Shown: positions 1-63,477 of the stretch, one piece after another
Layout of the letters: each line of letters begins with the position of its first letter
Position numbering within the stretch: position 1 is the first letter of the stretch
DNA from: Corallium rubrum
Lineage: Eukaryota; Cnidaria; Anthozoa; Scleralcyonacea; Coralliidae
Assembly: GCA_964035015.1 (NCBI GenBank)
Contig: OZ036013.1
Coordinates: 5,734,501-5,798,500, forward strand
Length of the DNA: 64,000 nucleotides
Direction: 5' to 3'
Translations under genes and position numbers: made by a program
The notes under the pieces: generated by a model
The model's database searches: none
The model's input: only the letters and a program-made list of their open reading frames with translations
What the model was told of the DNA's origin: nothing

Positions 1-800
1 AGTCAACCTGAAATATCTCAAGAACGAAGCAAGGAAACGAAAAACTACAAAAGATGTTACTCTATCATTTTAAGTGTTCTTTCATGCAAATAAGACAAAT
101 TTAATTTTCGTTTCATGTACACTTTAAGCAATTCCTATCAAAAAATTACTAGCGAATAAAAATATATGAAAAGCCCAAATGTGGGATAGGCCTCTGAAGC
201 GAAAATTAAGTTTGTCTTATTTGAAAGAACATCTAAAATGGTAGAGTAACATCTTTTGTAGTTTTTCGTTTCCTTGCTTCATTGTTGAGATATCTCAAGT
301 TGTTTGGTATGCAAATTAAACATGTTGTCGACAATCCATGTGTATCATGAATTATCTATCGGAGAAAGTTCTATATTTTTGCTATTATCAAACACAATCA
401 CTTGAAAATTCTACATGCTTACCAAAACACCCACATGCTTCTTCGATTTAATTTGGTTTGATAATAGCAACGATATGTAACTTTCGCTGATAACTCATGC
501 ACGTGTGACGTCAAGATGTTTAACTTGCATATCAATCAACCTGAAATATCTCAAGAACGAAGCAAGGAAACGAAAAACTACAAAAGATGTTACTCTATCA
601 TTTTAAGTGTTCCTTCAAATAAGACAAATTTAATTTTCGTTTCATGTACACTTTAAGCAATTCCTATCAAAAAGTACTAGCGAATAAAAATATATGAAAA
701 GCCTAAATGTGGGATAGGCTTATGAAGCGAAAATTAAGATGTTACTTTGTCATTTTACGTGTTCTTTTAAATAAGTCAAAGTTAATGTTGGCTTCACAAA
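1..800. repeat. MITE family A copies, downstream of fusion exon A
   Basis: This stretch has no gene. It holds copies of a dispersed AT-rich repeat in both orientations, marked by the core GAAGCAAGGAAAC (near 30 and 557) and its reverse complement (near 266). The same cores recur near 4407, 22818, 23385, 23568, 35037, 35320, 59867, 60170 and 63600. Facing cores about 300 bp apart make each full copy a terminal-inverted-repeat unit. The 200-846 part matches 34963-35617, downstream of fusion exon B, so it belongs to the duplicated block. I see no polyadenylation signal for the gene here. Confidence 0.75.
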
Positions 801-846: not shown

Positions 847-3800
847 TCAGTAAACTTTGTTGCACAGAACACAGTGCGAATTCAGAAGGTCTTTACATAT
901 TGTGCCATCTTTCAACTTTTCCTCTGCATTTTCGATGGCACTTGGTAGATTGAAAGCCAAATGAACAACATACGAGGAATCTTGAATGCTTTTCGATTGC
1001 CTTTCGAACGTCCCACCAGCTATATCGTAAACACATTCCTTCAAGGCTTTTTCGCCTCGAAAAGCGAAAGCGAGTTTCCCTGAAACTATCTTGAGTCCGC
1101 TTTTCTCTGCTTTGCTGGGCCATGGTTTCCAGACTTGGGAAAACGAAAACGTGCCTTGAGAATCCTCTTTGTAGAACTTCGCAAATCTCTCCAAGGTCGC
1201 TCTGAGAAATGGGTTGCCTTTTTCAAACTTCATGACCGCGCCATCATTGGCGTCTATAGGATCTGTCCCAAAGACATTGCCTTCTATTGCATCTAATGAC
1301 CGGACTACTATAGCATTTATATCTATAAAAGCTCCACCGTATTTGTACAAAACCAAAAACCGAAGAAGATCGGTCTGGTATTTCATACCACGCTTTCCCA
1401 GAGAATCCGCGTTTACTTGCGTATCTTGTACAAGAGCGAGGAGGCTGAATCGTTTGACCTCGAGATCATAGCCGACCTCTGTCAGAACATCGAATTGAGA
1501 CTGTCGAAGAGAATTACTGTGGACGATCACCTTGGACGTATGGTGATGGCGTAAAATCGATTCCACGCAACGCCAGTGGCGAAAACTGAACTCGCTTCGG
1601 ACATCTTGATCGGATGACGGGAAAATCAAGTGGAAAATTAATTGACTGTTCCCAATAAGTGACCGTGATATGAGGGGTAGCAGGCCAAATTTACGCGCGC
1701 TTTCGTGAAACACCCGCCTTTTTCTTATCACGTTCCAAGTAGACGCAACCAGTCTCATTCGTGTATCCAAGTTCGGGTTCTTCGGCGGGTTATCCCAATT
1801 AAAGTTTTCCAACCATTTACGAGCGTGCTCGGTTGACTTGTTGAGCATATTCAACGTGTGAAAAAGTTCCGTGAGTCCCCGAACCCGGTTGGAACCTTTA
1901 GTCAGAGAGCGCGACCCCCCGGGCATCCTACCGCTGTTAATAAAGATAACCGGCGTCCCCATTCCTACAGACGGGATGGCGCTATGAACTCTCTGTGTGA
2001 CGACGAGCTTAGCGCGCGAGTACAATTCGACGCGCTTGTAGGCTTCTATAACACGTCCCTTTGTGTTCGAACTTTGATCTTTACTATAACCTTTGACGTG
2101 GTTTACAACAATGCTTTGTTTCAGAAATTCTTGGGGGATCAGATCCCGAAACGTTTTCGAGATATCGACCAAATATATTTTATTCGTCCTGTTCTTTTCG
2201 CAGTTTTGGTTTCTCAAAAATAAGGTCAAACAACCAGAGAAAAAGGTCTCGATCCCGTGCTGCCGAAGGAATTGTTGCGTCGGATGGTCTCGGCAACCGA
2301 TCGGCGCTTTGCTTTTCAGGAAGTTCAGCGACTCGGGCTTCGAGGCGTTGCGTTTAAAATATTGGTCTATATGAATCGAGAGCATGACTGGGTCGATGTT
2401 TGATGACGGTGGCCAATGACTAGCACGCGCCCACCAAGCGTTATAAAACAGTGTATAGTTCTCCTTTGGGTTTGGCACAGCTTGCGCTGCCCTGTCTAAA
2501 AAGAAGTCGACATACGGAAGAAATTGAACACCTGGGAATCCTTGAATTTCGTCTCCGAGATTGCTTCCTCCGAGTTTCCTCACATTGCTATTATACGACA
2601 ACGTTCCGAAATGAGTACGCCTTTGCCTCTGTCCACTTTCTGGAGTCGATATTATTTCTATACGATGTCCACTGTTAACCGGGCACCGCCAGGTCGCGTT
2701 GTTTCCATTGCAATAACTTCTGTACGTTTTCCAAACAATTCCCCGAAAGTCAACCGGTACATCCTCATTTGAGAACTTCAGGTATTCTTTCGCCAAGGTA
2801 TCCGCGAGGACACTTATATAAGGATGGCGAGGGGGAAAGCTTGAGACATCGAGTATAGACGGAACGGCACTCGAGGGGTCCCTTGACGAAATTGTGATCC
2901 ATTCGTTTTGACTGGAAAACTGACCGCTCTTGATTCTAGCAGTTGGCACAAAAAATATCCCTCCGTAGTGCCAAAGGTGCGAGATTTGCACTGCCTTTTG
3001 AAGATAGTCCTCAAAATGCTCTCCCGACAAGATTTTGTGTAAAGGATGGCGCATAATCCAGGCTTCGAACGGGGTCCCTTTCAACAACTGTGGAATGACC
3101 AGAAAGCTCGCGGTGATTCTCGGGTTCCCTATTCCTTGAGTCGATTGCGTGCACTGTATGGATCCGCAGTAGACGTGAAGGAACATACCAGGATTTTGAT
3201 TGCTGACGCTTTTGATGTTCTCGACAACCTCGCGTGGTAGTGGACGTTCGTATACCCAAGATGTAGTTATATCGTTGCTTTTGTCCAGACCCGATTCCTC
3301 AGCTGGTGTGTTGTTGTTAATGAGAAAAACTAGTGCATAAAAGAACAGTCCTAACAGACCAACCAGACTGCACGTCTTTTTCCCTATTCTTACACGTTTT
3401 ATAGTAAACTGTAAGGCGGATTTCTGCAAGAAATAATAAAGGGCTAGTCCAACGCAGACGATACCCAAGCCCAATGTCATTTGCCAAGTCATTAGCGTAT
3501 TAAAATACCTGATGTTCGCCGAGATAACAAACACTCTTTTTATAAAATTTAGTATTGCGTGATTCATTGGAGAGATATCTCGCAATACGGCAATCGAGGC
3601 AATGTTGTAAATACAATGGAAACTGGCTGCCACTGTTCCCCAGTTGGACAGTAGTAAGCTGTGTTGCACCATCAGTTTGACACACAACAGGGGAATCAAT
3701 ATTAGCGAACCGTAAAAAGAGAGAACGAAGTATCTTTTCAGAGGGCTGTTGTCGGAATGGTCGCCCAATTTTTTCAAGGCGATATTGCGAATTGGGAACG

Positions 3801-4313
3801 CCGTGTTGGAGACAAACGCGGCGAGAACGCCCCATATGTTAAACGTTACGTCCCACATGACAAAAAGACAAGTGCCAAGCGACATGAGAACTAACGACAT
3901 CAACACAGAAGTATTCAGCTGTTTTCTTTGGCCGTCGTAGCCGAAGCACATCAAAAGGAAAAACATAAAGATGGGTTCGGAGGATTTGATGACTTGGGTC
4001 GCACTTGAACTGACGAAGGTGTACGATATATTGACCGAAAGGTGACCGAGAAGATTGCCAAGAATCGCTATCCAATGTTCTTTCTTATATTCCGGTGCGT
4101 TCAAGGGGAGTATTCCCCGGCTGACGAATAGGAGCCATGCCGCCGAGACGCAGCTACCGAGCAAAAACTGAACTGTTGTCAACTCCACCCACCTCAATGC
4201 TGCACTGGCTGTATTGTCGCCCAAACGGCTAACTCCTACTTCGCTTTTGGAGGCAATCGATGTAACGGCATTGGCGAACCACCAAATAGCAACGAGTAGC
4301 AGCAGGGTGAATG
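847..4313 (-). CDS. Transporter-pyruvyltransferase-glycosyltransferase fusion, large 3' exon, copy A
   Basis: One open frame of about 1155 codons ends in TGA at 847-849. Positions here count from an in-frame TTG at 4371. Residues 20-320 are a TPT/SLC35-like transporter with about ten hydrophobic segments, K129 in VIKSSEP and K278-R279 in FIKRVFVI, where triose-phosphate/PEP translocators carry phosphate-binding residues. Residues 333-352, after a basic stretch, are an extra membrane segment that would place the rest in the Golgi lumen. Residues 365-585 resemble A4GALT-type transferases (HYGGIFFVPTARI) but lack DXD. Residues 590-880 are a polysaccharide pyruvyl transferase: NLGDEIQGFPGVQFLP, IGCRD, FSGCLTLFL and VVTQRVHSAIP, with the R-x-H expected for PEP binding. 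Residues 905-1070 are a GT32/A4GALT-like transferase with DIN in place of DXD. The domains are seen; joint function in glycan pyruvylation is inferred. No in-frame ATG opens the frame: the exon starts at the acceptor at 4314-4315. Confidence 0.85.
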
Positions 4314-4345
4314 CTAAAGAAAGAAAAGTGCAAACATTAGGTTCG
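4314..4345 (-). promoter_or_regulatory. 3' splice site of fusion exon A
   Basis: Read on the minus strand, a CCTAAT branch-point-like motif is followed by a pyrimidine-rich tract and CTTTCTTTAG, then coding sequence in phase (the first codon is split, with two bases in this exon). An in-frame TAA lies just upstream of the TTG at 4371, so residues read between TTG and this AG are intron, not protein. The same acceptor occurs at 39091-39092 in copy B. Confidence 0.7.
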
Positions 4346-4638
4346 AAGACATTAAAGTGTTTATGAAACAATAATTAAGTTTGTCTCATCTTCAACAGTT
4401 GGATTTTCCTTGCTTCGTTGTTAAGATATTTCAGTTTTTGTTTGATATACAAATTAAACATGTTGACGTCGCAATTAAACAACACAAAATTCATAGACCT
4501 TATTCTAATATATATTTATATATATTCATATATTCTCATAACAAAAATTTTATCTTCCTTCCAAAATTTCACGATATTTAGTTTTTCTCGAAGTGCTTTC
4601 ACATGAATTTCCTCCAGAAACGCTTAATCTGCCCCTCT
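4346..4638. repeat. Intron start of copy A with a MITE A half-copy
   Basis: The sequence carries a MITE A core near 4407 and is alignable with the copy B intron (39621-39745) as far as about 4552, then diverges. In copy B the segment matching 4350-4422 is missing and a LINE fragment sits in its place. Confidence 0.6.
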
Positions 4639-6339: not shown

Positions 6340-6533
6340 CATCCACAAATGGTGTTAAAAGGGCTTGGTCCTTGCATAAAGCAAAAACAGATCGGAATCA
6401 TCGGATTCCCCATGTAAACATGCGCTCGGATTGACTTTACTCGCGTTTTTCCATTAGATTGGACTGTCAATCCTCTTCATATAAACAGGTCTTATAAGCG
6501 ATCAAATATCTTCTCTTGAGTTGAATCGCTTAA

Positions 6534-7303
6534 GCTCGGGTCACACGTGCGATTTTTTCTCGCGCCGGCAACGCAACGGCTCAAATTTCATTGCGTTGCC
6601 GGCGCGAGCGAAGTGGCTACACGTGCGACGATTTTTTAGCCGCGTCGGAACCATTAACATGAAAAAACTGGAAAATAGTGTATTTGCCAACATGGCGTCG
6701 AAAAAAGTAGCTCAAAATCTGGTACGATCGCAAGCTGCCGTTTGACTTCACATCGCATAGATGTTCTTAAACTATGAAATTTCTTCTCGAGAACTTCGAT
6801 ATCTGTACCCAAATCGCTCACAAACTCTTCTTTCACTTTGTTTTTTTCAACATGGCTTCTACACTGGGGATAAGAAGCGCTCCACAGAATAGGATTATCG
6901 CGATAAAACTCTATTAATAATTTCACGTCGTCTGCTGTTATTTTCTCCGAGTTTTGTTGAACTACGTCGACCTGAGGTTGAGAGGCTTCCAAATACACGT
7001 CCATGTTATATATGTTTAAGGAATCGAAACAGAAAAAAACGAGCATGCACAACAACACACTGGCCATACAAAAGCGAATTTCATTGGCTGACTTAAAATA
7101 ATCATTGCCTTTCCTGCTGAAACAATGCCCATGCAATTTGATATTTTCGGCAATCGTTGCCGAAAGTTAAAACATTTTACGAACGCATGAGGTTACAATT
7201 GCGTATGCAACACGTGTGACTTCATCTCTTGCGCCGGCAACGCAATGAAATTTGACCCGTTGCGTTGCCGGCGCGAGAAAAAATTCGCACGTGTGACCCG
7301 AGC
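6534..7303. mobile_element. TIR element carrying a MADF-domain ORF, flanked by TTAA
   Basis: The ends are inverted copies: GCTCGGGTCACACGTGCGA on the left and its reverse complement on the right, each followed inward by a GCGCCGGCAACGCAA palindromic module in both orientations. Both sides are flanked by TTAA (6530-6533 and 7304-7307). A TTAA duplication suggests piggyBac-like integration, but a MADF protein is typical of PIF/Harbinger elements, whose TSD is TTA or TAA. No transposase is present. Confidence 0.7.
6654..7004 (-). CDS. MADF/Myb-SANT-like DNA-binding protein of a transposon
   Basis: The chosen start is the ATG at 7004; the frame stays open up to 7136, but that leader is hydrophobic and does not look like MADF protein. 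The core reads VKLLIEFYRDNPILW, then HVEKNKVKEEFV and LEKKFHSLRTSMRCEVKR, which matches the MADF pattern (leucine-rich helix, P-x-LW, then a helix with K-x-LR and R). Such proteins bind DNA; in PIF/Harbinger elements a Myb/MADF-like partner brings the transposase to the ends. It lies inside the TIR element and ends at TGA at 6654-6656, before any long C-terminal region, so it may be a truncated or partial protein. A host gene exon is less likely given the enclosing TIRs. Confidence 0.55.
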   Translation of the reverse strand: MDVYLEASQPQVDVVQQNSEKITADDVKLLIEFYRDNPILWSASYPQCRSHVEKNKVKEEFVSDLGTDIEVLEKKFHSLRTSMRCEVKRQLAIVPDFELLFSTPCWQIHYFPVFSC

Positions 7304-7485
7304 TTAACTATACACATCATTAAGTACTATTTAAAACATGAGCAGCAGTGTTTTATCAGATTTAAAAGACGAGGCGATAGCCGAGTCAAAAACTATCAAA
7401 TGTGCTTGATTGATAGCGCGATAACATTTGATCATTGTGGTATTGTTTGACAAAAACAACCGCGATACTCGTAAACAGTAAAGAG

Positions 7486-23213: not shown

Positions 23214-23732
23214 CTTTAATTGATGATTAATATTAAGCAATTCCTATCAAAAAGTACTAGCGTATAAAAATATATGAAAAGCCCAAATGTGGGATAGGCC
23301 TCTGAAGCGAAAATTAAGTTTGTCTTATTTGAAAGAACACTTAAAATGATAGAGTAACATCTTTTGCAGTTTTTCGTTTCCTTGCTTCATTGTTGAGATA
23401 TTTCAGTTTGTTTGAAATGTAAATTAAACAACTTGACGTCCTTCGAATTAAGTTTGGTTTGATAATAGCAAAGATATATAACCTTGTCTGACAACTCATT
23501 ATGCACATGTGACGTCAAGTTGTTTAATTTACGTTTCAAACAAACTGAAATATCTCAACAACGAAACAAGGAAACGAAAAACTGCAAAAGATGTTAGCTA
23601 CTCTATCATTTTAAGTGTTCTTTCAAATAAGACAAACTTAATTTTCGTTTCATGTGCACTTTAAGCAATTCCTATCAAAAAGTACTAGCGAATAAAAGTA
23701 TATGAAAAACCCAAATATGGGATAGGCCTATG
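23214..23732. repeat. MITE family A copy, right end split off by the BEL/Pao insertion
   Basis: The sequence runs to GGGATAGGCCTATG at 23732 and resumes as TATGAAGCGAAAATTAAG at 34963, the same junction that is uninterrupted near 188-212. The LTR element therefore inserted inside this repeat and duplicated TATG. Confidence 0.8.
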
Positions 23733-25239: not shown

Positions 25240-26579
25240 AGTAGTAATACCCCCCCCCATCGAGGGACCAAAGGGATGCCGCCTCATTAAATATTCAATT
25301 TTTAATTATTCATTCTCATGCTCCTTTGCGACCCTCTAACCCTAATCTCGTTACGTAATTATGTTTCGTGCTCCTATATGACCCCCTAACCCTAATCTCA
25401 CTCAACCCTCCCGGTTTTCACTACGTCATACCGACTTATTATTTATTCATTCTCAGACTCCTTTGGGACGTAGTAACCCTAACTTTCCCCCCTAACCCTA
25501 GCTGTCACTCAACCCCCTGGTATTCACTACGTCATTCCCGATTGGTCTCCGACTGATTTCCGAAGTTACGTAAAAGGCACTGGACTTATCTCTTTATAAC
25601 TAATAGAAACCAACTTTCATTTAAACCCTTAACCCTACTTATAGCCAACACTTGTGGGACACGTATACGTACAGAGCATGCGTACAGTAAACTTTAACAA
25701 AATAGACGTTCTTTACAAGGAACTAAAGAGAAATTGATAGAGGCACTTTATATTTTTTTATCTGAAACCTTGTCTCGATGAGTATAGAGAGTTTTGAGCA
25801 GCCGAAGTGTCTGAATTGGCTGAGCTCGTATGGACTTAAATCAATAGCATATGATGAATATTATATTAGGTTTAGAGCCTAAACATTCAATCATCCTAGA
25901 ATCATTGCTAGCTAAACCCTTCGTTTGTAAGTGAAGAAATCGTAAGAAGATAGAATGAGGAGTCAATTCTAAAAGCCATAAGAACGTTTTTAAGTGTCGA
26001 TATATAAACGAAATATTATTTGGCTGCGGGACGGCTGAGTATCGACTTGAATTAATAGCAACATGAATATTATATTAGTTAGAACTTAAACGGCCAAACA
26101 GCTCTTTACCCATTTACTTGGAGATATGTGCCGAATTGTCGCTTATTTGGCTTTAGTTTATAAGTAAACGATGCCTTGAATGAAGAAATCGTTCGGCAAA
26201 CTGTTCGAAAGACATTGAATCATTTTCTTCAGAGGGGTTTGCCAGAATATAAACCGAGAAACCGTTCGGCAAGCTGTTCGAAAGACATTGAATCATTTTC
26301 TTCAGAGGGGTTTGCCAGAATATAAACTGTCAAGGGTTAAACGGCTGACTCGGCTATTTTATTAACGTCGTCAAGCATCTTGTTAATGTTGCTACGGCTG
26401 ATATTTGCGTATTTATGCTCAGTGCACGTGCAGGAGACAAAAGAGAAAACTCATTAAAGTTACTAATGACCAAAACATAACCGGATTTGCATATAAGTAG
26501 AATATTTAATTCATTTTAGGGGTGATCATGAGTTTTTTGGGAATAATAAGGGGCCTGAAGAGGTATTAATATATGGACA

Positions 26580-26885
26580 AGTTTAGGCGAAAAAGTTAGT
26601 CTTAGGACTATAGTCTTAGTTTTAGGACTATATAGTCTTAGTTTTAGCACTATATAGTCTTAGTCTTAGCACTATATAGTCTTAGTATTAGGACTATAGT
26701 CTTAGTCTTAGGAATATATAGTCTTAGTCTTAGGACTATATAGTCTTAGTTTTAGGACTATAGTCTTAGTCTTACGGACTATAGCCTTAGTCTTTGTCTT
26801 AGTCTTAGGACTATAGTCTTAGTCTTAGGACTATAGTCTTAGTCTTAGGACTATATACTCTTTGGACTATATAGTCTTAGTCTTA
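26580..26885. repeat. AGTCTTAGTCTTAGGACTATAT minisatellite, left arm
   Basis: Imperfect units of about 22 bp made of TAGTCTTAG and GGACTATA. The mirror array is at 29930-30215. Confidence 0.85.
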
Positions 26886-27045
26886 TAATCACCGCAGGGG
26901 TAATCCCCAAACACCCCCGGGGTACCCCAATCACCCCTGGGGTAACCCCAAACACCCCGGGGGTAACCCCCAAACACCCCTGGGGTACCCCAATCAACCC
27001 AGGGGTACCCCAATCACCCCAGGGATACCCACAAACACCCCTGTC
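26886..27045. repeat. GGGGTACCCCAATCACCCC minisatellite, left arm
   Basis: About seven units alternate ACCCCAATCACCCC and ACCCCCAAACACCCC. GGGGTACCCC is itself palindromic. The mirror is at 29770-29925. Confidence 0.85.
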
Positions 27046-27079
27046 GTGACACTTTTTACATTTTGTCACGGAAGAACAG

Positions 27080-27508
27080 CCAGGACTCGGAGCTGGGAGC
27101 CGATGGCTCGGAGCCAGGAGCCAAGGGCTCGGAGCTAGGAGCCGAGGGCTCGGAGCTAGGAGCCGAGGGCTCGGAGCCAGGAGCCGGGGACTCGGAGCCA
27201 GGAGCCGGCGGCTCGGAGCCAGGAGCCGTGGGGCTCGGAGCCAAGGGCTCGGAGCCAGGAGCCGGAGGCTCGGAGCCAGGAGCCGGGGGCTCGGAGCCAG
27301 GAGACGGGGGCTCGGGGCCAGGAGCCGGTGGCTCGGAGCTAGGAGCCGGGGGCTCGGAGCCAGGAGACGGGGGCTCGGAGCCAGGAGCCGGGGGGCTCGG
27401 AGCCAGGAGCCAAGGGCTCGGAGCCAGGAGCTGGGGGGCTCGGAGCCATGAGCCGGGGCCTCGGAGCCGGGAGCCAAGGGCTCGGAGCTCGCAGCCGAGA
27501 GTTCGGAG
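27080..27508. repeat. 21-bp GGCTCGGAGCCAGGAGCCGGG minisatellite, left arm
   Basis: About 20 imperfect units. Because 21 is a multiple of three, all frames stay open and give false proteins rich in GSEPGA or APSP. The mirror is at 29320-29733, one unit shorter by eye. Confidence 0.9.
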
Positions 27509-28355
27509 TCTTATCTTCCTTATCTTCCTCTTATCTTCCCATTATCTTCCTTGTCTTCCTCTTATCTTCCCCTTATCTTCCCCTTATCTTCCTCTTATCT
27601 TCATCTTATCTTCCTTATCTTCCCCTTATCTTCCCTTATCTTCCCATTATCTTCCTTATCTTCCTCTTATCTTCCCCTTATCTTCCCCTTATCTTCCCCT
27701 TATCTTCCCCTTATCTTCATCTTATCTTCCTTATCTTCCCCTTATCTTCCCATTATCTTCCTTATCTTCCTCTTATCTTCATCTTATCTTCCTTATCTTC
27801 CCCTTATCTTCCCCTTATCTTCCTTATTTTCCTCTTATCTTCCCCTTATCTTCCCATTATCTTCCCATTATCTTCCTCTTATCTTCATCTTATCTTCCTT
27901 ATCTTCCCCTTATCTTCCTCTTATCTTCATCTTATCTTCCTTATCTTCCCCTTATCTTCCCATTATCTTCCTTATCTTCCTATTATCTTCATCTTATCTT
28001 CCTTATCTTCCCCTTATCTTCCCATTATCTTCATCTTATCTTCCTTATCTTCCCCTTATCTTCCCATTATCTTCCTTATCTTCCTCTTATCTTCATCTTA
28101 TCTTCCTTATCTTCCCCTTATCTTCCCATTATCTTCCTTATCTTCCTTATCTTCCTCTTATCTTCATCTTATCTTCCTTATCTTCCCATTATCTTCCTTA
28201 TCTTCCTCTTATCTTCCCCTTATCTTCCCCTTATCTTACCATAGTCTTCCTTTATCTTCCTATCTTCCCCTTATCTTCCCCTTATCTTCCCTTTACCTTT
28301 CTTATCTTCCCTTTATCTCCTTATCTTCCTTATATTCCACTTATCTTCTCATAAG
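27509..28355. repeat. CTTATCTTCC minisatellite, left arm
   Basis: About 75-80 units of 10-11 bp (CTTATCTTCC, CCTTATCTTC, CATTATCTTC) make a strand-asymmetric polypyrimidine tract. The mirror polypurine tract is at 28405-29325 and is longer. Long LSSPYLPLIF-type frames here are artefacts of the repeat. Confidence 0.9.
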
Positions 28356-31300
28356 ATTGATTCAATCCTAGGATACAATTATTCAATCTTATAAGAATCA
28401 ATCTTATGGGAAGATAAGTGGAATATAAGGAAGATAAGAAGGAGATAAAGGGAAGATAAGAAAGGTAAAGGGAAGATAAGGGGAAGATAAGGGGAAGATA
28501 AGGGGAAGATAAGGGGAAGATAGGAAGATAAAGGAAGACTATGGTAAGATAAGGGGAAGATAAGGGGAAGATAAGAGGAAGATAAGGAAGATAATGGGAA
28601 GATAAGGAAGATAAGATGAAGATAAGAGGAAGATAAGGAAGATAAGGAAGATAATGGGAAGATAAGGGGAAGATAAGGAAGATAAGATGAAGATAAGAGG
28701 AAGATAAGGAAGATAATGGGAAGATAAGGGGAAGATAAGGAAGATAAGATGAAGATAATGGGAAGATAAGGGGAAGATAAGGAAGATAAGATGAAGATAA
28801 GAGGAAGATAAGGAAGATAATGGGAAGATAAGGGGAAGATAAGGAAGATAAGATGAAGATAAGAGGAAGATAAGGGGAAGATAAGGAAGATAAGATGAAG
28901 ATAAGAGGAAGATAATGGGAAGATAATGGGAAGATAAGGGGAAGATAAGAGGAAAATAAGGAAGATAAGGGGAAGATAAGGGGAAGATAAGGAAGATAAG
29001 ATGAAGATAAGAGGAAGATAAGGAAGATAATGGGAAGATAAGGGGAAGATAAGGAAGATAAGATGAAGATAAGGGGAAGATAAGGGGAAGATAAGGGGAA
29101 GATAAGGGGAAGATAAGAGGAAGATAAAGGAAGATAATGGGAAGATAAGGGGAAGATAAGGGGAAGATAAGAGGAAGATAAGAGGAAGATAAGGAAGATA
29201 ATGGGAAGATAAAGGAAGATAATGGGAAGATAAGAGGAAAATAAGGAAGATAATGGGAAGATAAGGGGAAGATAAGAGGAAGACAAGGAAGATAATGGGA
29301 AGATAAGAGGAAGATAAGGAAGATAAGACTCCGAACTCTCGGCTGCGAGCTCCGAGCCCTTGGCTCCCGGCTCCGAGGCCCCGGCTCATGGCTCCGAGCC
29401 CCCAGCTCCTGGCTCCGAGCCCTTGGCTCCTGGCTCCGAGCCCCCCGGCTCCTGGCTCCGAGCCCCCGTCTCCTGGCTCCGAGCCCCCGGCTCCTAGCTC
29501 CGAGCCACCGGCTCCTGGCCCCGAGCCCCCGTCTCCTGGCTCCGAGCCCCCGGCTCCTGGCTCCGAGCCTCCGGCTCCTGGCTCCGAGCCCTTGGCTCCG
29601 AGCCCCACGGCTCCTGGCTCCGAGCCGCCGGCTCCTGGCTCCGAGTCCCCGGCTCCTGGCTCCGAGCCCTCGGCTCCTAGCTCCGAGCCCTTGGCTCCTG
29701 GCTCCGAGCCATCGGCTCCCAGCTCCGAGTCCTGGCTGTTCTTCCGTGACAAAATGTAAAAAGTGTCACGACAGGGGTGTTTGTGGGTATCCCTGGGGTG
29801 ATTGGGGTACCCCTGGGTTGATTGGGGTACCCCAGGGGTGTTTGGGGGTTACCCCCGGGGTGTTTGGGGTTACCCCAGGGGTGATTGGGGTACCCCGGGG
29901 GTGTTTGGGGATTACCCCTGCGGTGATTATAAGACTAAGACTATATAGTCCAAAGAGTATATAGTCCTAAGACTAAGACTATAGTCCTAAGACTAAGACT
30001 ATAGTCCTAAGACTAAGACAAAGACTAAGGCTATAGTCCGTAAGACTAAGACTATAGTCCTAAAACTAAGACTATATAGTCCTAAGACTAAGACTATATA
30101 TTCCTAAGACTAAGACTATAGTCCTAATACTAAGACTATATAGTGCTAAGACTAAGACTATATAGTGCTAAAACTAAGACTATATAGTCCTAAAACTAAG
30201 ACTATAGTCCTAAGACTAACTTTTTCGCCTAAACTTGTCCATATATTAATACCTCTTCAGGCCCCTTATTATTCCCAAAAAACTCATGATCACCCCTAAA
30301 ATGAATTAAATATTCTACTTATATGCAAATCCGGTTATGTTTTGGTCATTAGTAACTTTAATGAGTTTTCTCTTTTGTCTCCTGCACGTGCACTGAGCAT
30401 AAATACGCAAATATCAGCCGTAGCAACATTAACAAGATGCTTGACGACGTTAATAAAATAGCCGAGTCAGCCGTTTAACCCTTGACAGTTTATATTCTGG
30501 CAAACCCCTCTGAAGAAAATGATTCAATGTCTTTCGAACAGCTTGCCGAACGGTTTCTCGGTTTATATTCTGGCAAACCCCTCTGAAGAAAATGATTCAA
30601 TGTCTTTCGAACAGTTTGCCGAACGATTTCTTCATTCAAGGCATCGTTTACTTATAAACTAAAGCCAAATAAGCGACAATTCGGCACATATCTCCAAGTA
30701 AATGGGTAAAGAGCTGTTTGGCCGTTTAAGTTCTAACTAATATAATATTCATGTTGCTATTAATTCAAGTCGATACTCAGCCGTCCCGCAGCCAAATAAT
30801 ATTTCGTTTATATATCGACACTTAAAAACGTTCTTATGGCTTTTAGAATTGACTCCTCATTCTATCTTCTTACGATTTCTTCACTTACAAACGAAGGGTT
30901 TAGCTAGCAATGATTCTAGGATGATTGAATGTTTAGGCTCTAAACCTAATATAATATTCATCATATGCTATTGATTTAAGTCCATACGAGCTCAGCCAAT
31001 TCAGACACTTCGGCTGCTCAAAACTCTCTATACTCATCGAGACAAGGTTTCAGATAAAAAAATATAAAGTGCCTCTATCAATTTCTCTTTAGTTCCTTGT
31101 AAAGAACGTCTATTTTGTTAAAGTTTACTGTACGCATGCTCTGTACGTATACGTGTCCCACAAGTGTTGGCTATAAGTAGGGTTAAGGGTTTAAATGAAA
31201 GTTGGTTTCTATTAGTTATAAAGAGATAAGTCCAGTGCCTTTTACGTAACTTCGGAAATCAGTCGGAGACCAATCGGGAATGACGTAGTGAATACCAGGG

Positions 31301-31573
31301 GGTTGAGTGACAGCTAGGGTTAGGGGGGAAAGTTAGGGTTACTACGTCCCAAAGGAGTCTGAGAATGAATAAATAATAAGTCGGTATGACGTAGTGAAAA
31401 CCGGGAGGGTTGAGTGAGATTAGGGTTAGGGGGTCATATAGGAGCACGAAACATAATTACGTAACGAGATTAGGGTTAGAGGGTCGCAAAGGAGCATGAG
31501 AATGAATAATTAAAAATTGAATATTTAATGAGGCGGCATCCCTTTGGTCCCTCGATGGGGGGGTATTACTACT

Positions 31574-34962: not shown

Positions 34963-35617
34963 TATGAAGCGAAAATTAAGCTTGTCTTATTTGAAAGAAC
35001 ACTTAAAATGATAGAGTAACATATTTTGTAGTTTTTCGTTTCCTTGCTTCGTTCTTGAGATATCTCAAGTTGTTTGGTATGCAAATTAAACATGTTGTCG
35101 TCATGTGCATCATGAATTATCTATCGGAGAAAGTTCTATATTTTTGCTATTATCAAACACAATCACTTGAAAATTCTACATGCTTACCAAAACACCCACA
35201 TGCTTCTTCGATTTAATTTGGTTTGATAATAGCAACGATATGTAACTTTCGCTGATAACTCATGCACGTGTGACGTCAAGATGTTTAACTTGCATATCAA
35301 TCAGCCTGAAATATCTCAAGAACGAAGCAAGGAAACGAAAAACTACAAAAGATGTTATTCTATCATTTTAAGTGTTATTTCAAATAAGACAAATTTAATT
35401 TTCGTTTCATGTACACTTTAAGCAATTCCTATATATATCAAAAAGTACTAGCGATTAAAAATGTATGAAAAGCCCAAATGTGGGATAGGCCTATGAAGCA
35501 AAAATTAAGATGTTACTTTGTCATTTTACGTGTTCTTTTAAATAAGACAAACTTAATGTTGGCTTCACAAACACTTTAAAAACGTTAACCGACATTGACT
35601 CGTACAAAGAATAGATG
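34963..35617. repeat. MITE family A copies downstream of fusion exon B
   Basis: Matches 200-846, downstream of exon A, with about 95 percent identity by eye, including facing MITE A cores near 35037 and 35320. It is the right part of the copy that the BEL/Pao element split. Confidence 0.75.
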
Positions 35618-38600
35618 TCAGTAAACTTTGTTGCACAGAACACAGTGCGAATTCAGAAGGTCTTTACATATTGTGCCATCTTTCAACTTTTCCTCTGCAT
35701 TTTCGATGACAATTGGTAGATTGAAAGCCAAGTGAACAACATACGAGGAATCTTGAATGCTTTTTGATTGCCTTTCGAACGTCCCACCAGCTATATCGTA
35801 AACACATTCCTTCACGGCTTTTTCGCCTTGAAAAGCGAAAACGAGTTTCCCTGAAACTATCTTGAGTCCGCTTTTCTCTGCTTTGCTGGGCCATGGTTTC
35901 CAGACTTGGGAAAACGAAAACGTGCCTTGAGAATCCTCTTTGTAGAACTTCGCAAATCTCTCCAAGGTCGCTCTGAGAAATGGGTTGCCTTTTTCAAACT
36001 TCATGACCGCGCCATCATTGGCATCTATAGGATCTGTCCCAAAGACATTGCCTTCTATTGCATCTAATGACCGGACTACTACAGCATTTATATCTATAAA
36101 AGCTCCACCGTATTTGTACAAAACCAAAAACCGAAGAAGATTGGTCTGGTATTTCATGCCACGCTTTCCCAGAGAATCCGCGTTTATATCAAACCCATGC
36201 ACATCTTGTACAAGAGCGACGAGGCTGTATCGTTTGACCTCGAGATCATAGCCGACCTCTGTCAGAACATCGAATTGAGACTGTCGAAGAGAATTACTGT
36301 GGACGATAACCTTGGACGCAAGGTGATGGCGTAAAATCGATTCCACGCAACGCCAGTGGCGAAAACTGAACTTGCTTCGGACGTCTTGATCGGATGACGG
36401 GAAAATCAAGTGGAAAACTAATTGACTGTTCCCAATAAGTGACCGTGATATGAGGGGTAGCATGCCAAATTTACGCGCGCTTTCGTGAAACACCCGCCTT
36501 TTCCTTATCACGTTCCAAGTAGACGCAACCAGTCTCATTCGTGTATCCACGTTCGGGTTCTTCGGCGGGTTATTCCAATTAAAGTTTTCCAACCATTTAC
36601 GAGCGTGCTCGGTTGACTTGTTGAGCATATTCAACGTGTGAAAAAGTTCCGTGAGTCCCTGAACCCGGACGGAACCTTTAATGTTTGAGCCCGACCCCCC
36701 GGGCATACTACCGCTGTTAATAAAGATAACCGGCGTCCCCATTCCTACAGACGGAAGGGCGCTATGAATTCTCTGTGTGACGACGAGCTTTGCACGCGAG
36801 TACAGTTCGATGCGCTCGTAGGCTTCTATAACACGTCCCTTTGTGTTCGAACTTTGATCTTTACTATAGCGTTTCGAGTGTTTTACAACAATGCTTTGTT
36901 TGCGAATTTCTTGGGGGATCAGATCCCGAAACGTTTTCGCGACATCGACCAAATATATTCTATTCGTCCTGTTCTTTTCGCCGTTTTGGTTTCTCAAAAA
37001 TAAGGTCAAACAACCAGAGAAAAAGGTCTCGATCCCGTGCTGCCGAAAGAATTGTTGCGTCGGAAGGTCTCGGCAACCGATCGGCGCTTTGCTTTTCAGG
37101 AACTTCACCGACTCGGGCTTCGAGGCGTTGCGTCTAAAACCTCCGGTTATATGAATCGAGAGCATGACTGGGTCGATGTTTGATGACGGTGGCCAATGGC
37201 TAGCACTCGCCCACCAAGCGTTATAAAACAGTGTATAGTTTTCCTTCGGGTTGGGCACAGCTTGCGCTGCCCTGTCTAAAAAGAAGTCGACATTTGGAAG
37301 AAATTGGACACCTGGGAATCCTTGAATTTCATCTCCGAGATTACCTTGTCCGAACCTCCCCACGTTGCTATTATACGACAACGTTCCGAAATGAGTACGC
37401 CTTTGCCTCTGTCCACTTTCTGGAGTCGGTATTATTTCTATAAGATGTCCACTGTTAACCGGGCACCGCCAGGTCGCGTTGTTTCCATTGCAATAATTTT
37501 TGTACGTTTTCCAAACAATTCCCCGAAAGTCAACCGGTACATCCTCATTGGAGAACTTCAGGTATTCTTTCGCCAAGGTATCTGCGAGCACGCTTATATA
37601 AGGATGGCGAGGGGGAAAGCTTGAGACATCGAGTATAGACGGAACGGCACTCGAGGGGTCCCTTGACGAAATTGTGATCCATTCGTTTTGACTGGAAAAC
37701 TGACCGCTCTTGATTCTAACAGTTGGCACAAAAAATATCCCTCCGTAGTGCCAAAGGTGCGAGATTTGCACTGCCTTTTGAAGATAGTCCTCAAAATGCT
37801 CTCCCGACAAGATTTTGTGTAAAGGATGGCGCATAATCCAGGCTTCGAACGGAGTCCCTTTCAACAACTGTGGAATGACCAGAAAGCTCGCGGTGATTCT
37901 CGGGTTCCCTATTCCTTGAGTCGATTGCGTGCACTGTATGGATCCGCAGTAGACGTGAAGGAACATACCAGGATTTTGATTGCTGACGCTTTTGATGTTC
38001 TCGACAACCTCGCGTGGTAGTGGACGTTCGTATACCCAAGATGTAGTTATATCGTTGCTTTTGTCCAGACCCGATTCCTTAGCTGGTGTGTTGTTAATGA
38101 GAAAAACTAGTGCATAAAAGAACAGTCCTAACAGACCAACCAGACTGCACGTCTTTTTCCCTATTCTTACACGTTTTATAGTAAACTGTAAGGCGGATTT
38201 CTGCAAGAAATAATAAAGGGCTAGTCCAACGCAGACGATACCCAAGCCCAATGTCATTTGCCAAGTCATTAGCGTATTAAAATACCTGATGTTCGCCGAG
38301 ATAACAAACACTCTTTTTATAAAATTTAGTATTGCGTGATTCATTGGAGAGATATCTCGCAATACGGCAATCGAGGCAATGTTGTAAATACAATGGAAAC
38401 TGGCTGCCACTGTTCCCCAGTTGGACAGTAGTAAGCTGTGTTGCACCATCAGTTTGACACACAACAGGGGAATCAATATTAGCGAACCGTAAAAAGAGAG
38501 AACGAAGTATCTTTTCAGAGGGCTGTTGTCGGAATGGTCGCCCAATTTTTTCAAGGCGATATTGCGAATTGGGAACGCCGTGTTGGAGACAAACGCGGCG

Positions 38601-39090
38601 AGAACGCCCCATATGTTAAACGTTACGTCCCACATGACAAAAAGACAAGTGCCAAGCGACATGAGAACTAACGACATCAACACAGAAGTATTCAGTTGTC
38701 TCCTTTGGCCGTCGTAGCCGAAGCACGTCAAAAGGAAAAACATAAAGATGGGTTCGGAGGATTTGATGACTTGGGTCGCACTTGAACTGACGAAGGTGTA
38801 CGATATATTGACCGAAAGGTGACCGAGAAGATTGCCAAGAATCGCTATCCAATGTTCTTTCTTGTATTCCGATGCGTTCAACGGGATTATTCCCCGGCTG
38901 ACGAATAGGAGCCATGCCGCCGAGACGCAGCTACCGAGCAAAAACTGAACTGTTGTCAACTCCACCCACCTCAATGCTGCACTGGCTGTATTGTCGCCCA
39001 AACGGCTAACTCCTACTTCGCTTTTGGAGGCAATCGATGTAACGGCATTGGCGAACCACCAAATAGCAACGAGTAGCAGCAGGGTAAATG
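35618..39090 (-). CDS. Transporter-pyruvyltransferase-glycosyltransferase fusion, large 3' exon, copy B
   Basis: Same architecture and length as copy A: TPT/SLC35-like transporter with VIKSSEP and FIKRVFVI, extra membrane segment, DXD-less transferase-like region (HYGGIFFVPTVRI), pyruvyl transferase (NLGDEIQGFPGVQFLP, IGCRD, VVTQRIHSALP) and C-terminal transferase with YGGAFIDINAVVV. The frame is intact from the acceptor at 39091-39092 to TGA at 35618-35620. By eye about 64 residues differ from copy A, and about 34 of these lie in the 240-residue core of the pyruvyl transferase; the first 350 residues differ at only about four sites. All recognizable motif residues are kept. It probably encodes a sister enzyme. 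The upstream exon with the start codon was not found, and a LINE fragment lies 35 bp upstream of the exon. Confidence 0.85.
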
Positions 39091-42385: not shown

Positions 42386-42817
<432 letters not shown>

Positions 42818-42854
42818 TGAATTTGTGTTCTCTGGATTTAAGTTTTTTAAAGTT

Positions 42855-42889
42855 TGAGCTTTCAACTCGGTCCTTCAAGTCTTCGTCAG
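42855..42889 (-). ncRNA. Hammerhead-like motif in the Penelope-like copy 1 3' UTR
   Basis: On the minus strand CTGACGA is followed by ACTTG-loop-CGAGT (one wobble pair) and GAAAGC. Core order is right but stems I and III are weak, so activity is doubtful. Confidence 0.4.
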
Positions 42890-42900
42890 AAATGAGGTGG

Positions 42901-45068
42901 TTAGACTTTGGGTTCTTCGTTTATATTATTTGAATTTTGTTGTGATATGCGATCCGAGCGTCTGATTGGTTTGTTGTTTTTGGTAGATTTTTGATTGGTT
43001 GGTGTTCCCAGTGGTTGGTTCTGATTGGTTATTACTTTATAGGAGATCGAATGTTGAGTGTGTTTTAGTTGATGGTAGATAGTAGGTATTTCAACGTGTC
43101 TGTTAAATGTGTGTTTTTCTGTGCTGTACCATGCTTCTTTGAACTCGCGGGCATGTCTTGTTGAGGCTTGGCCTAGAACTTTCGTTTGAGTCCGATTAAA
43201 TGTGTGGCCATGGTCGTCTGCGTGGATTGCCGGAAGGGATTTGTGATCGTGTCGTTTGATTGCGTTTCTATGTTCTGTTAGTCTTGACTCAACTTTCTTG
43301 GATGTTTCGCCGATGTATTTTAGTGGGCAGTCGTTGCAAGGGAACATGTAGATTGCGTTGCGTCGGTCAGTTGTGGTAATTCTGTCTTTGTGTTTAGTAA
43401 AGTTGGTCGAGAGTTTGTGTAATGGTTTGTGAGCTACTTCTATGTTGTGTTGCCTAAGTAATCTGGTTGTTATTTCGGATATGGTCTGGATGTATGGTAG
43501 AACCACTTTTTTCTTTTCTGGTGTTGCGTTGTTTGGGTGTTGGACCGTAGTATTGGTTTGTGTGTGATTTCTTTGTGTCGTGATTTTGCGTATAAAGTTT
43601 TTTGGGTAGTTGTTTTTAAGGAATGTCTGGTATAGGTAGTTTCGTTCGTTCTGTTTAGATTGTTGTGTGCTGCAGTGTGTATCGATTCTGTTGAACAGTG
43701 TTTTGATACAACTGATCTTGTGTTGGGTAGGGTGGTTGCTGTTGTAATTCAGTATTTGGTCGGTGTTAGTTTTCTTTCTGTAAACCTGTGTGTGGATGGT
43801 GCCGTCATTAGTCTTGGTTAGTAAAACATCAAGAAAGGCGAGTTTGTTGTCATGTTCTTCTTCTATAGTGAATGTAATGTTGTCAGTGGTGTTGTTGATC
43901 GTTTGCAGTAAGTTGTTAATTTTGTTTGTCTTCACCACTGCCAAAACGTCGTCGACATATCTGTCCCATAGTCTTATGTCTTTGTTATTCGATACGGACT
44001 TTTTCTCTAGGTCTTGTAGCACCACTTCAGCGAGGAAACTGGAAAGTGGAGATCCCATCGGGGTGCCGGATACTTGTTTGTAGTATTTGTCTTGGAAGCG
44101 GAATTCAGTTGAGAGGCATAGGTCAAGAAGGTCGAGGATGTCGTATTTACTTGGGTCGGTTCTTGTTTGCCACGTTGTGTCGTCAGAAAGTAACTTGTCG
44201 GTGATTGTTTTCGCTGTTTGTAGTGGAATAGAGGTAAATAAGGAAACAACGTCAAATGATATCATGGTTTCGTCAGGTTCTAATTTGAGGTCTTTTATGT
44301 GTTCTAGGAAGGTGTTGACGTTGTCGATTGAATGAGGAGAGGTTTTCACTAGAGGTTGGAGAAGTTGTGCTAGGTACTTTGAGAGGTGATATGTCGGTGA
44401 TCCAGGAAGAGAGACTATGGGTCGTGGTATGTTGTCTTTGTGGATTTTAGGTAGTCCGTAGAAGCGTGCGATATTGGCGTCGTTTGGTCTGATTCGGTAG
44501 TAGGTGTTTGGTTTCAGTTTTCCTTTGTCCTTGAGAGATTTTAGTTTTGAGTTTATACGAGATATTGTAGTTTTAGTAGGGTCGGCGTTTATTGGAATGT
44601 AGGTATTACTATCTTGCAGTTGCGTGGTAGCTTTGTTGACATATTCAGTCTTGTTCATCACTACGGTAACGCGTCCTTTGTCAGCTGGTAGGATGATGAT
44701 GGTGTCGTCTTTCTTTAGGTCGTTCAGGGTTTGTTTTTCAGTTTGCGTCAAGTCGATTGGGTGTTTACGGTGTAAGAGGCTGTTAGTAACTTGGTGGCGA
44801 ATGTCGTTTCTTGTATCTTCTGTTGGAATGTTGGTCTTGATCGCAGTTTCTAGTTCAGCGATGAAATCTATGTTGTCGGCGTCTTTCGTGTTGTAGTTCA
44901 TCCCTTTGGCGAGTAAGGTGGTTTCATGTTCTGTGAGTTGTTTATCTGAGATGTTCTTGACCCAGTTGTTTGTGTTATACTTGTTGCGCGATCGGTACTG
45001 TCGTGTGTTTACTAATTTTGCTTGTAGTTCAGAGTGGCGTCTTGTCCTGTATTCGTTGACTGTATTAT
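42901..45068 (-). CDS. Penelope-like element reverse transcriptase with GIY-YIG endonuclease, copy 1
   Basis: A frame of about 720 codons ends in TAG at 42901-42903. The N-terminal region ([20 protein letters not shown]) is typical of Penelope/Poseidon. RT motifs follow: [46 protein letters not shown] and [10 protein letters not shown] (YVDD catalytic pair). The C-terminal GIY-YIG domain has [20 protein letters not shown] and [12 protein letters not shown] basic tail ends the protein. The in-frame ATG near 45096 lies in the inverted neighbour, so the real start is lost or upstream of the junction. Against copy 2 it lacks one residue (IPRPIVS against IPLRPIVS). The frame is otherwise open, suggesting recent activity. 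Confidence 0.9.
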
Positions 45069-46829
45069 GGACTGAATATGTCAACAAAGCTACCACGCAA
45101 CTGCAAGATAGTAATACCTACATTCCATTAAACGCCGACCCCACTAAAACTACAATATCTCGTATAAACTCAAAACTAAAATCTCTCAAGGACAAAGGAA
45201 AACTGAAACCAAACACCTACTACCGAATCAGACCAAACGACGCCAATATCGCACGCTTCTACGGACTACCTAAAATCCACAAAGACAACATACCACTACG
45301 ACCCATAGTCTCTCTTCCTGGATCACCGACATATCACCTCTCAAAGTATCTAGCACAACTTCTCCAACCTCTAGTGAAAACCTCTCCTCATTCAATCGAC
45401 AACGTCAACACCTTCCTAGAACACATAAAAGACCTCAAATTAGAACCTGACGAAACCATGATATCATTTGACGTTGTTTCCTTATTTACCTCTATTCCAC
45501 TACAAACAGCGAAAACAATCACCGACAAGTTACTTTCTGACGACACAACGTGGCAAACAAGAACCGACCTAAGTAAATACGACATACGACATCCTCGACC
45601 TTCTTGACCTATGCCTCTCAACTGAATTCCGCTTCCAAGACAAATACTACAAACAAGTATCCGGCACCCCGATGGGATCTCCACTTTCCAGTTTCCTCGC
45701 TGAAGTGGTGCTACAAGACCTAGAGAAAAAGTCCGTATCGAATAACAAAGACATAAGACTATGGGACAGATATGTCGACGACGTTTTGGCAGTGGTGAAG
45801 ACAAACAAAATTAACAACTTACTGCAAACGATCAACAACACCACTGACAACATTACATTCACTATAGAAGAAGAACATGACAACAAACTCGCCTTCCTTG
45901 ATGTTTTACTAACCAAGACTAATGACGGCACCATCCACACACAGGTTTACAGAAAGAAAACTAACACCGACCAAATACTGAATTACAACAGCAACCACCC
46001 TACCCAACACAAGATCAGTTGTATCAAAACACTGTTCAACAGAATCGATACACACTGCAGCACACAACAATCTAAACAGAACGAACGAAACTACCTATAC
46101 CAGACATTCCTTAAAAACAACTACCCAAAAAACTTTATACGCAAAATCACGACACAAAGAAATCACACACAAACCAATACTACGGTCCAACACCCAAACA
46201 ACGCAACACCAGAAAAGAAAAAAGTGGTTCTACCATACATCCAGACCATATCCGAAATAACAACCAGATTACTTAGGCAACACAACATAGAAGTAGCTCA
46301 CAAACCATTACACAAACTCTCGACCAACTTTACTAAACACAAAGACAGAATTACCACAACTGACCGACGCAACGCGATCTACATGTTCCCTTGCAACGAC
46401 TGCCCACTAAAATACATCGGCGAAACATCCAAGAAAGTTGAGTCAAGACTAACAGAACATAGAAACGCAATCAAACGACACGATCACAAATCCCTTCCGG
46501 CAATCCACGCAGACGACCATGGCCACACATTTAATCGGACTCAAACGAAAGTTCTAGGCCAAGCCTCAACAAGACATGCCCGCGAGTTCAAAGAAGCATG
46601 GTACAGCACAGAAAAACACACATTTAACAGACACGTTGAAATACCTACTATCTACCATCAACTAAAACACACTCAACATTCGATCTCCTATAAAGTAATA
46701 ACCAATCAGAACCAACCACTGGGAACACCAACCAATCAAAAATCTACCAAAAACAACAAACCAATCAGACGCTCGGATCGCATATCACAACAAAATTCAA
46801 ATAATATAAACGAAGAACCCAAAGTCTAA
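45069..46829 (+). pseudogene. Penelope-like element copy 2, 5'-truncated and frameshifted
   Basis: Begins inside the RT at EYVNKATT, head to head with copy 1, and is nearly identical to it. A 7-bp duplication (ACGACAT twice, about 45586-45599) shifts the frame between the FDVVSLF and GTPMGSP motifs. The second frame then runs intact through YVDD and the GIY-YIG domain to TAA at 46827-46829. The N-terminal part of the protein is missing, so this copy cannot make a full product. Confidence 0.88.
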
Positions 46830-46840
46830 CCACCTCATTT

Positions 46841-46870
46841 CTGACGAAGACTCGAAGGACCGAGTTGAAA
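46841..46870 (+). ncRNA. Hammerhead-like motif in the Penelope-like copy 2 3' UTR
   Basis: CTGACGA, then the perfect hairpin ACTCG-AAGGAC-CGAGT, then GAAA. This is the order of a hammerhead core, with one bulged base. Stems I and III are not convincing. Confidence 0.4.
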
Positions 46871-46947
46871 GCTCAAACTTTAAAAAACTTAAATCCAGAG
46901 AACACAAATTCAAACACATTATGCCTGGATTACAAATCTTTAAATCA

Positions 46948-60295: not shown

Positions 60296-60561
60296 CTAGT
60301 TACGCCGTTGGAGTTTCATCTCGGACTTCTTTAAAGAAACCTTGTCTCCCCTCCAATTCTCCCAGACAACTCCATCTACTTTTGTACCATCTCCACCGTT
60401 ATGATAGTATAAACCATTCAAGCTGGAGTCATAGCAAGACGCGTACCACCAGGCACCCTTGGCGGCTTGAGCACAATTTCCAGTATATTCGTCATTATCC
60501 CTATCTTTTGTGCTGAACTTCATCCCGTCATGAACCGTAGCTAGTGAGTCAATGGCATTAC
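60296..60561 (-). CDS. Fibrinogen-related domain protein, last exon (C-terminal half of domain)
   Basis: After an acceptor (TTCTTTAATGCAG on the minus strand) the exon reads NAIDSLATVHDGMKFSTKDR, DNDEYTGNCAQAAKGAWWYA and SCYDSSLNGLYYHNGGDG, then VDGVVWENWRGDKVSLKKSE and MKLQRRN before TAG. These are the conserved parts of a fibrinogen C-terminal domain: HDGMKFSTKDRDND calcium site, the C...GAWWY..C disulfide pair, LNG and the W-x-x-WRG end. The codon split (G|GT) matches the donor at 63091-63096. Animal proteins with this domain include ficolins, tenascins and FREPs, mostly secreted lectins or matrix proteins; which class this is cannot be told from this domain alone. The frame read upstream of 60561 is intron. 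Confidence 0.88.
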
Positions 60562-60667
60562 CTGCATTAAAGAAAATAAGCACAAACTGATCGTATGTCC
60601 CAAAATTTGATACGGGCTCAAACCATAGATACCGTGGAATTCCGAAAGTAACGGCCCCCGAAAGTAA

Positions 60668-63096: not shown

Positions 63097-63477
63097 CTGA
63101 ATACTTTCCAACTCTCAACTGGTATAGATCCGTTTCACTCGCTACGTCAAATGTGTCGTACTTAGCGTAACGTGTCTCGTTTTCAAAATCTTCCAGATCA
63201 ATTCTCAAAACATTTTGACCACTCTCTGTCAAACGATTTATCTTGTCCAATCCAAGCCAGAACTCTCCACTGAGATTACCAAATCCATTTTCGTAGTCAG
63301 TCCAATTTCGATAAAAATACACACTTCCGTCCATTCGTCTTTGAAAAACAGTCCAACCTCCTCCATCAGTTGTCATGTCACAGCTAACATTAAAAGCTCC
63401 TGCACCATCTGGATCAATTATATAGACGCCATCTGATGTCACTCCGTTGTTGTACAAAGCAGCACAACTTTTTACTA
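63097..63477 (-). CDS. Fibrinogen-related domain protein, penultimate exon (N-terminal half of domain)
   Basis: The exon starts after an acceptor (TTTCTGCTATACATAG on the minus strand) and reads KSCAALYNNGVTSDGVYII, FNVSCDMTTDGGGWTVFQRR and MDGSVYFYRNWTDYENGFGN, then LSGEFWLGLDKINRLT and on to YQLRVGKYSG. This is the start of a fibrinogen C-terminal domain: the first cysteine pair, GGGWTVFQRR, and FWLGLDKI. Donor G|GTAAGG follows. An in-frame TTG upstream gives a pseudo-start; there is no ATG, so this is an internal exon. Exons for a signal peptide or other domains should lie beyond 63.5 kb and were not found. Confidence 0.88.

Follow-up and report, generated by a model that had tools for sequence, protein, structure and literature searches.

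A predicted single polypeptide joining a TPT-family transporter, a pyruvyltransferase domain and two GT-A-fold domains in Corallium rubrum

The Giant Exon and Its Second Copy

In the window (the whole stretch of 64,000 nucleotides of Corallium rubrum contig OZ036013.1 that was analysed), a minus-strand open frame encodes 1174 aa (4371..847). Inspection of the sequence identifies an AG at 4315-4314, with a polypyrimidine tract, as the 3′ splice acceptor of a giant exon, so the exon extends over 4313..847 on the minus strand; with residue numbering starting at base 4314, its product has 1155 residues (Table 1). The exon frame contains no in-frame ATG upstream of the transporter part, and a putative short 5′ exon must therefore carry the start codon. 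The initial annotation had placed a transporter, a pyruvyl transferase and a glycosyltransferase in this exon without a stop, which was confirmed at the same coordinates, the strand now being minus; the matches to Pfam TPT, PS_pyruv_trans and Gly_transf_sug all exceed their curated cut-offs in the exon product. That annotation had overlooked a GT-A-fold domain, which separates the extra helix from the pyruvyltransferase, and also the second intact copy at 39090..35618. As judged from sequence comparison and structural models, the exon belongs to a real, conserved, multi-copy gene for a predicted single polypeptide of five parts.

Both copies of the giant exon in the window are open across their full length and have an identical acceptor signal. 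The duplicated block is 96.5% identical across 4172 aligned columns, and divergence is distributed unevenly along it: dN/dS is 0.24 for the transporter (dN 0.006, dS 0.024), 0.28 for the first GT-A domain, 0.64 for the pyruvyltransferase (dN 0.064, dS 0.100), 0.85 for the C-terminal GT domain and 0.58 for the whole exon. Little constraint was measured between the two window copies in the pyruvyltransferase and C-terminal domain, and the uneven pattern suggests gene conversion with other copies. Because similarity between the copies ends some 35 bases before the exon starts, an arrangement of two giant terminal exons with one common first exon was considered. Each gene copy is followed by a repeat of ~200 nt that also recurs at another site in the window (3-738, 23233-23732, 34965-35509) and may have aided the gene duplication.

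Table 1. Features of the giant exon and its second copy (positions are those of the window)
Feature	Position	Strand	Evidence
3′ splice acceptor and polypyrimidine tract of the giant exon	4314..4335	-	Sequence
TPT-family transporter, residues 1-300, ten predicted membrane helices	3415..4313	-	Pfam TPT; 5Y78 fold match
Eleventh predicted membrane helix, residues 312-334	3313..3381	-	AlphaFold2 helix, low confidence; hydropathy 2.36
First GT-A-fold domain (GT-A1), residues about 346-545, without DXD	2680..3279	-	
Pyruvyltransferase domain, residues 562-868	1711..2631	-	
C-terminal GT32/A4GALT-like GT-A domain (GT-A2), residues 880-1155, D-I-N in place of DXD	850..1677	-	Gly_transf_sug; motif; GT-A fold in P0003 model
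Second intact copy of the giant exon, with equal domains and equal acceptor	35618..39090	-	

Other Elements in the Window

Two large palindromes are present, at 25252-31563 and 42811-46919, with arms of 1956 and 1336 nt, respectively, that are 100% complementary; either may be real or a fold-back assembly artefact. The former lies between two Pao-type retroelement frames and contains satellite repeats, and the latter surrounds a reverse transcriptase frame, perhaps Penelope-like, with a GIY-YIG-like end (21.0 bits, cut-off 22.6). A MADF-domain frame (6654-7136, minus strand, PF10545) lies in a segment (6530-7307) with inverted repeats at its termini (29 nt at 97% and 74 nt at 89%), which looks like a small DNA transposon with a MADF/SANT-like protein. 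The segment 8242-8640 is a short MITE-like element; its inverted repeats measure 29 nt (97%), and a palindromic motif recurs many times inside it. Pieces of fibrinogen C-terminal domains at 60296-60742 and 63050-63505, both on the minus strand, are perhaps exons of fibrinogen-related genes.

Transporter Part and Extra Helix

The TPT match (PF03151) scores 93.9 bits (cut-off 30; 93.6 bits in the second copy), and the AlphaFold2 model has ten helices across this part. In the model of the window protein, the transporter fold is nearest to 5Y78, a triose-phosphate/phosphate translocator, by a clear lead; in the model of the relative P0003, a CMP-sialic acid transporter ties with 5Y78. Pocket positions were assigned via the 5Y78 alignment with what we take to be the 5Y78 numbering. 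The K-R pair (K259, R260) and Y236 of the phosphate site are present in 23 of 23 rows, K110 in 22 of 22 and H91 in 20 of 22, and P0003 and P0018 have Asn at the His position. All six pocket residues of the window transporter (His, Lys, Phe, Tyr, Lys, Arg) are those of plant TPT. At the position of F173 (plant TPT Phe262), 22 of 23 rows, the window protein included, have Phe; the small residue expected of PEP carriers is present in P0001 alone, as Ser. According to passages of PMC6981301, plant TPT does not transport PEP and Phe262 is the residue that excludes it. The score for TIGR00817 (plastid phosphate/PEP translocator), 77.3 bits, is far under its cut-off of 317.9. The earlier reading of the K-R pair as the mark of an organophosphate carrier, and of PEP as its cargo, thus gains from the invariance of the pair and loses from the pocket Phe shared with the non-PEP plant TPT. 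The exclusion rule derives from plastid carriers and may not hold for the fused transporter; given the plant-TPT-like pocket, the chances that the cargo is PEP are near even.

The helix that follows the ten TPT helices has pLDDT <50 in the AlphaFold2 model (segments 299-321 and 323-346). It coincides with the highest of the eight hydropathy peaks called in the window protein (2.36 at 314-332), and the other six proteins examined have a peak at the corresponding place. Sequons, used as a test of lumenal topology of the enzyme part, gave no support. The proposal that an odd number of helices puts the enzymes in the lumen fits the count and hydropathy of the predicted helices but gains no support from model confidence or sequons. 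From the ten plus one predicted helices we infer a lumenal enzyme part; the protein would sit in the Golgi membrane. The predicted structure sought in the initial annotation agrees with it in helix number, at low confidence for the last helix.

Pyruvyltransferase Domain

PS_pyruv_trans (PF04230) matches with 51.1 bits (cut-off 25.3). Sequence comparison with solved structures is weak (E 0.05; Pvg1, 5AX7, E 0.0015), and the assignment was therefore decided by fold comparison, in which the domain model matches the fold of Pvg1 (5AX7). Residues N585, G587, D588, H648, D676, R775 and H777 are invariant in 23 of 23 rows and R675 is kept in 22; D588, R775, H777 and their neighbours are mostly kept in a 29-row alignment with bacterial enzymes. 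In the 5AX7 alignment (5AX7 numbering being chain index plus 53), D588 corresponds to Pvg1 D106, in a weakly aligned segment (-2.5 bits), and R775 to Pvg1 R337; R675 is a likely candidate counterpart of Pvg1 R217. Passages of PMC4872226 state that Pvg1 D106A loses almost all activity and that R337 is a proposed PEP contact.

The Two GT-A Domains

GT-A1 has a GT-A fold by predicted structure and no Pfam match in the window protein. In P0003 it matches PF05704 with 25.2 bits (cut-off 24.5) across 37 residues only, and its profile match to the C-terminal domain has E 2.9e-4 at 18% probability. DXD is found in GT-A1 in none of 23 rows. The C-terminal domain passes Gly_transf_sug (PF04488; 39.8 bits, cut-off 23), and its score for Gb3_synth (PF04572) is 15.1 bits in the window protein, under the cut-off of 22.3, and 60.5 bits in P0003. 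The label of a GT32/A4GALT-like transferase is therefore sustained by the former family and not, in the window protein itself, by the latter. As the PF04572 cut-off is passed by four relatives (P0003, P0018, P0001, P0002), sequence comparison points to an A4GALT-like origin of this domain.

The C-terminal DXD is intact in P0001, P0002, P0003 and P0018, four of the 21 rows having the region, and also in P0029 and P0074, which are outside that count. Both window copies read D-I-N at this site, and AEN, TED, QDD, DEN or similar triplets stand there in the remaining 15 rows. As read from the alignments, DXD is decayed in 17 of 21 C-terminal and 23 of 23 first GT-A domains, with the transporter and pyruvyltransferase sites kept.

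In P0141 (18837-base contig) the order is reversed: a pyruvyltransferase comes after a Gb3_synth-type glycosyltransferase end that has D-A-D. Its branch in the tree is very long (1.85). The arrangement hints at a GT-then-pyruvyltransferase arrangement outside the cnidarian-type group.

Relatives and Conservation of the Fusion

In a search with the full-length query, limited to proteins of 0.55-1.75x the query length (7995 candidates scored), 21 proteins matched; PF03151 and PF04230 are present in all 21 and PF04488 in 16, so that the domain set first noticed in the window does occur together elsewhere. A profile search with the 23-row alignment, again with 7995 candidates scored, gave 19 matches, all within these 21, and nothing new; P0003 and P0018 were absent from its matches. 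One fused homolog, P0012, is an annotated protein of the octocoral Xenia sp. (uncharacterized LOC124446788), and rows grouping with it are called octocoral-type on the strength of that grouping.

The frame of P0011 (3996-base contig) reads LLTK-LWKTWQ and continues to a normal C-terminus, and that of genomic-looking relatives reads LLTK-VC (VR in P0004) followed by non-homologous residues. This difference between P0011 and the octocoral-type genomic frames would be the pattern expected for a spliced transcript versus unspliced DNA. Relatives P0005 and P0010 are equal in longest contig (143827 bases), as are P0006 and P0013 (249959 bases). Each pair probably represents neighbouring gene copies, and local duplication may therefore be common in the relatives too.

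A search with the pyruvyltransferase domain gave 185 matches, of which the best 120 were listed and 19 inspected; among these 19, several cnidarian-type ones begin or stop within a domain. P0029, from the sea anemone Actinia tenebrosa (528 aa, annotated as lactosylceramide 4-alpha-galactosyltransferase-like), starts within the pyruvyltransferase and reaches the C-terminus. P0022 (331 aa, 2290-base contig) has a pyruvyltransferase domain alone with unrelated residues behind it, and may represent either a fragment of a fusion gene or a separate, unfused copy. In a 55-row pyruvyltransferase tree, 29 rows, comprising fused proteins and partial pieces, form one group (support 97/95), which P0034 and P0036 adjoin; the other 24 rows stand apart (100/99), and those with names are bacterial.

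Identity was compared across eight pairs with overlapping rows. It ranges over 40-64% for the transporter, 45-59% for the pyruvyltransferase, 25-53% for GT-A1 and, counted to residue 1030, 32-53% for GT-A2. In seven of the eight pairs the transporter is more conserved than either GT domain; the pyruvyltransferase is so in seven as well, and both are so together in six; the exceptions, both relative to GT-A2, amount to 1.0 and 1.3 points.

Bacterial Relatives and Origin

The nearest named stand-alone relatives of the pyruvyltransferase among the matches listed are bacterial, mainly flavobacterial; Pfam annotation of one locus, L001, showed it to be a polysaccharide locus. Of 404 relatives, 80 loci were kept and GT32-like ORFs were sought in their flanks. 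Such an ORF is present in 22 of the 80, a raw count over loci that are related to each other; in all 22 it lies after the pyruvyltransferase on the same strand, and in none before. It is within 100 bases of the pyruvyltransferase in 10 loci, and in an eleventh close locus (L048) it begins within the pyruvyltransferase frame, stop-to-stop frames being used. The order is equal in the bacteria and the fusion, which would fit transfer of a pyruvyltransferase-GT32 gene pair from bacteria, but the PF04572 matches of the four relatives point instead to an A4GALT-like origin of the C-terminal domain. GT-A1 falls outside the bacterial GT32 profile (E 0.023).

Proposed Function and Alternative Explanations

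Pyruvyl transfer from PEP releases phosphate, and plastid members of the transporter family swap organophosphate for phosphate; for these two reasons phosphate is the probable counter-substrate. The transporter would bring an organophosphate, of which PEP is the likeliest, into the lumen of the Golgi and carry phosphate out, the pyruvyltransferase would transfer the pyruvyl group of PEP to a glycan, and the phosphate so released would be returned by the antiporter. The main task of the GT modules may be to bind the acceptor glycan; those with an intact DXD may, in addition, attach the sugar that is later pyruvylated. That the protein is a Golgi protein importing such an organophosphate against phosphate and pyruvylating a glycan in the lumen is a proposition that we consider evenly balanced. 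Its more specific form, a self-supplying enzyme in which PEP/phosphate exchange feeds the protein's own pyruvyltransferase and partly decayed GT-A modules present the glycan, is put forward tentatively. Overall, the initial interpretation is supported in part: the fusion and its domains stand, the pocket speaks against PEP, and sequons lend the lumenal topology no support.

A doubtful but serious alternative is that the transporter moves a nucleotide sugar, triose phosphate or some different sugar phosphate, and that PEP arrives via a separate carrier. It would account for the six plant-TPT pocket residues with the excluding Phe, for the tie of the CMP-sialic acid transporter in P0003 and, as a nucleotide sugar would be required there, for the DXD kept in four C-terminal domains; but where DXD is lost the phosphate site, K-R pair included, persists, and 5Y78 leads clearly in the window model. 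Repurposing of the pyruvyltransferase fold, as another transferase or a binding module in a fusion unrelated to pyruvylation, is unlikely. The GT-A sites indicate that decay is possible in the fused protein and sequence similarity to Pvg1 is weak, yet D588, R775, H777 and their neighbours are invariant here and mostly shared with the bacterial enzymes.

If residues 312-334 did not cross the membrane, the enzyme part would be cytosolic and use cytosolic PEP, and the transporter would move a product or phosphate. The low model confidence at 299-346 and the silent sequons are compatible with this arrangement, which is nevertheless improbable in view of the strong hydropathy peak, its counterparts in six other proteins and the fact that known glycan acceptors are lumenal. 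Least probable is that pseudogenization or faulty assembly explains the two copies in the window: although the exon lacks a start codon, lies in a retroelement-rich neighbourhood with two large exact palindromes and has the overall dN/dS given above, both copies are fully open with equal acceptors, the transporter dN/dS is low and the architecture is kept in distant relatives.

Significance

Pyruvylated galactose is reported from sponges, a sea hare and fission yeast in passages of PMC6801904 and PMC6994554, in line with the earlier remark on sponge glycans. Among the passages covered, no eukaryotic pyruvyltransferase other than yeast Pvg1 appears. The papers covered include none on pyruvyl transferase in Nematostella or on polysaccharide pyruvyl transferase in metazoans, and the small further sets in which the enzyme name was looked for, without an occurrence, say little. 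The fused family offers a specific candidate route by which some animals could produce pyruvylated anionic glycan ends. If the proposed function is correct, it would provide an animal pyruvyltransferase together with an SLC35/TPT-fold carrier covalently tied to the enzyme it feeds. In this family, transporter and pyruvyltransferase residues are retained while the adjoining glycosyltransferase motifs decay. With carrier and enzyme in one chain, whether donor uptake into the Golgi is coupled to its consumption there can be tested directly.

Comparison with Known Systems

The system of Schizosaccharomyces pombe has in common with the fused protein the pyruvyltransferase fold, the equivalents of D106 and R337 and a carrier that feeds donor to the Golgi lumen; however, Pvg1 and the PEP transporters Pet1 and Pet2 are separate proteins (passages of PMC4872226) and Pvg1 is without GT domains, whereas here one chain holds all parts and the cargo is putative. 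Plastid phosphate translocators (TPT/PPT, 5Y78) share the fold, the K-R pair, the Lys, the Tyr and mostly the His, but are stand-alone plastid proteins, whereas the fused transporter has a C-terminal multi-enzyme extension and does not reach the TIGR00817 cut-off. The A4GALT/GT32 families share PF04488 with the C-terminal domain, which in the window protein falls under the PF04572 cut-off and has D-I-N for DXD. Flavobacterial pyruvyltransferases, some with a GT32-like gene downstream, are encoded as separate genes without a transporter in the chain, and GT-A1 is outside their GT32 profile.

In Golgi complexes (abstract of PMC6453868), nucleotide-sugar transporters are assembled with glycosyltransferases, which brings a donor carrier near the donor-using enzyme, as in the fusion; these complexes are non-covalent, whereas the protein described here would be a single polypeptide. 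Among the titles and passages searched, a carrier covalently joined to a pyruvyltransferase between two GT-A domains was not found, nor, among titles and the starts of abstracts, was a carrier-glycosyltransferase fusion. Within the literature so covered, the component families are known and the covalent join of carrier and pyruvyltransferase is the new element.
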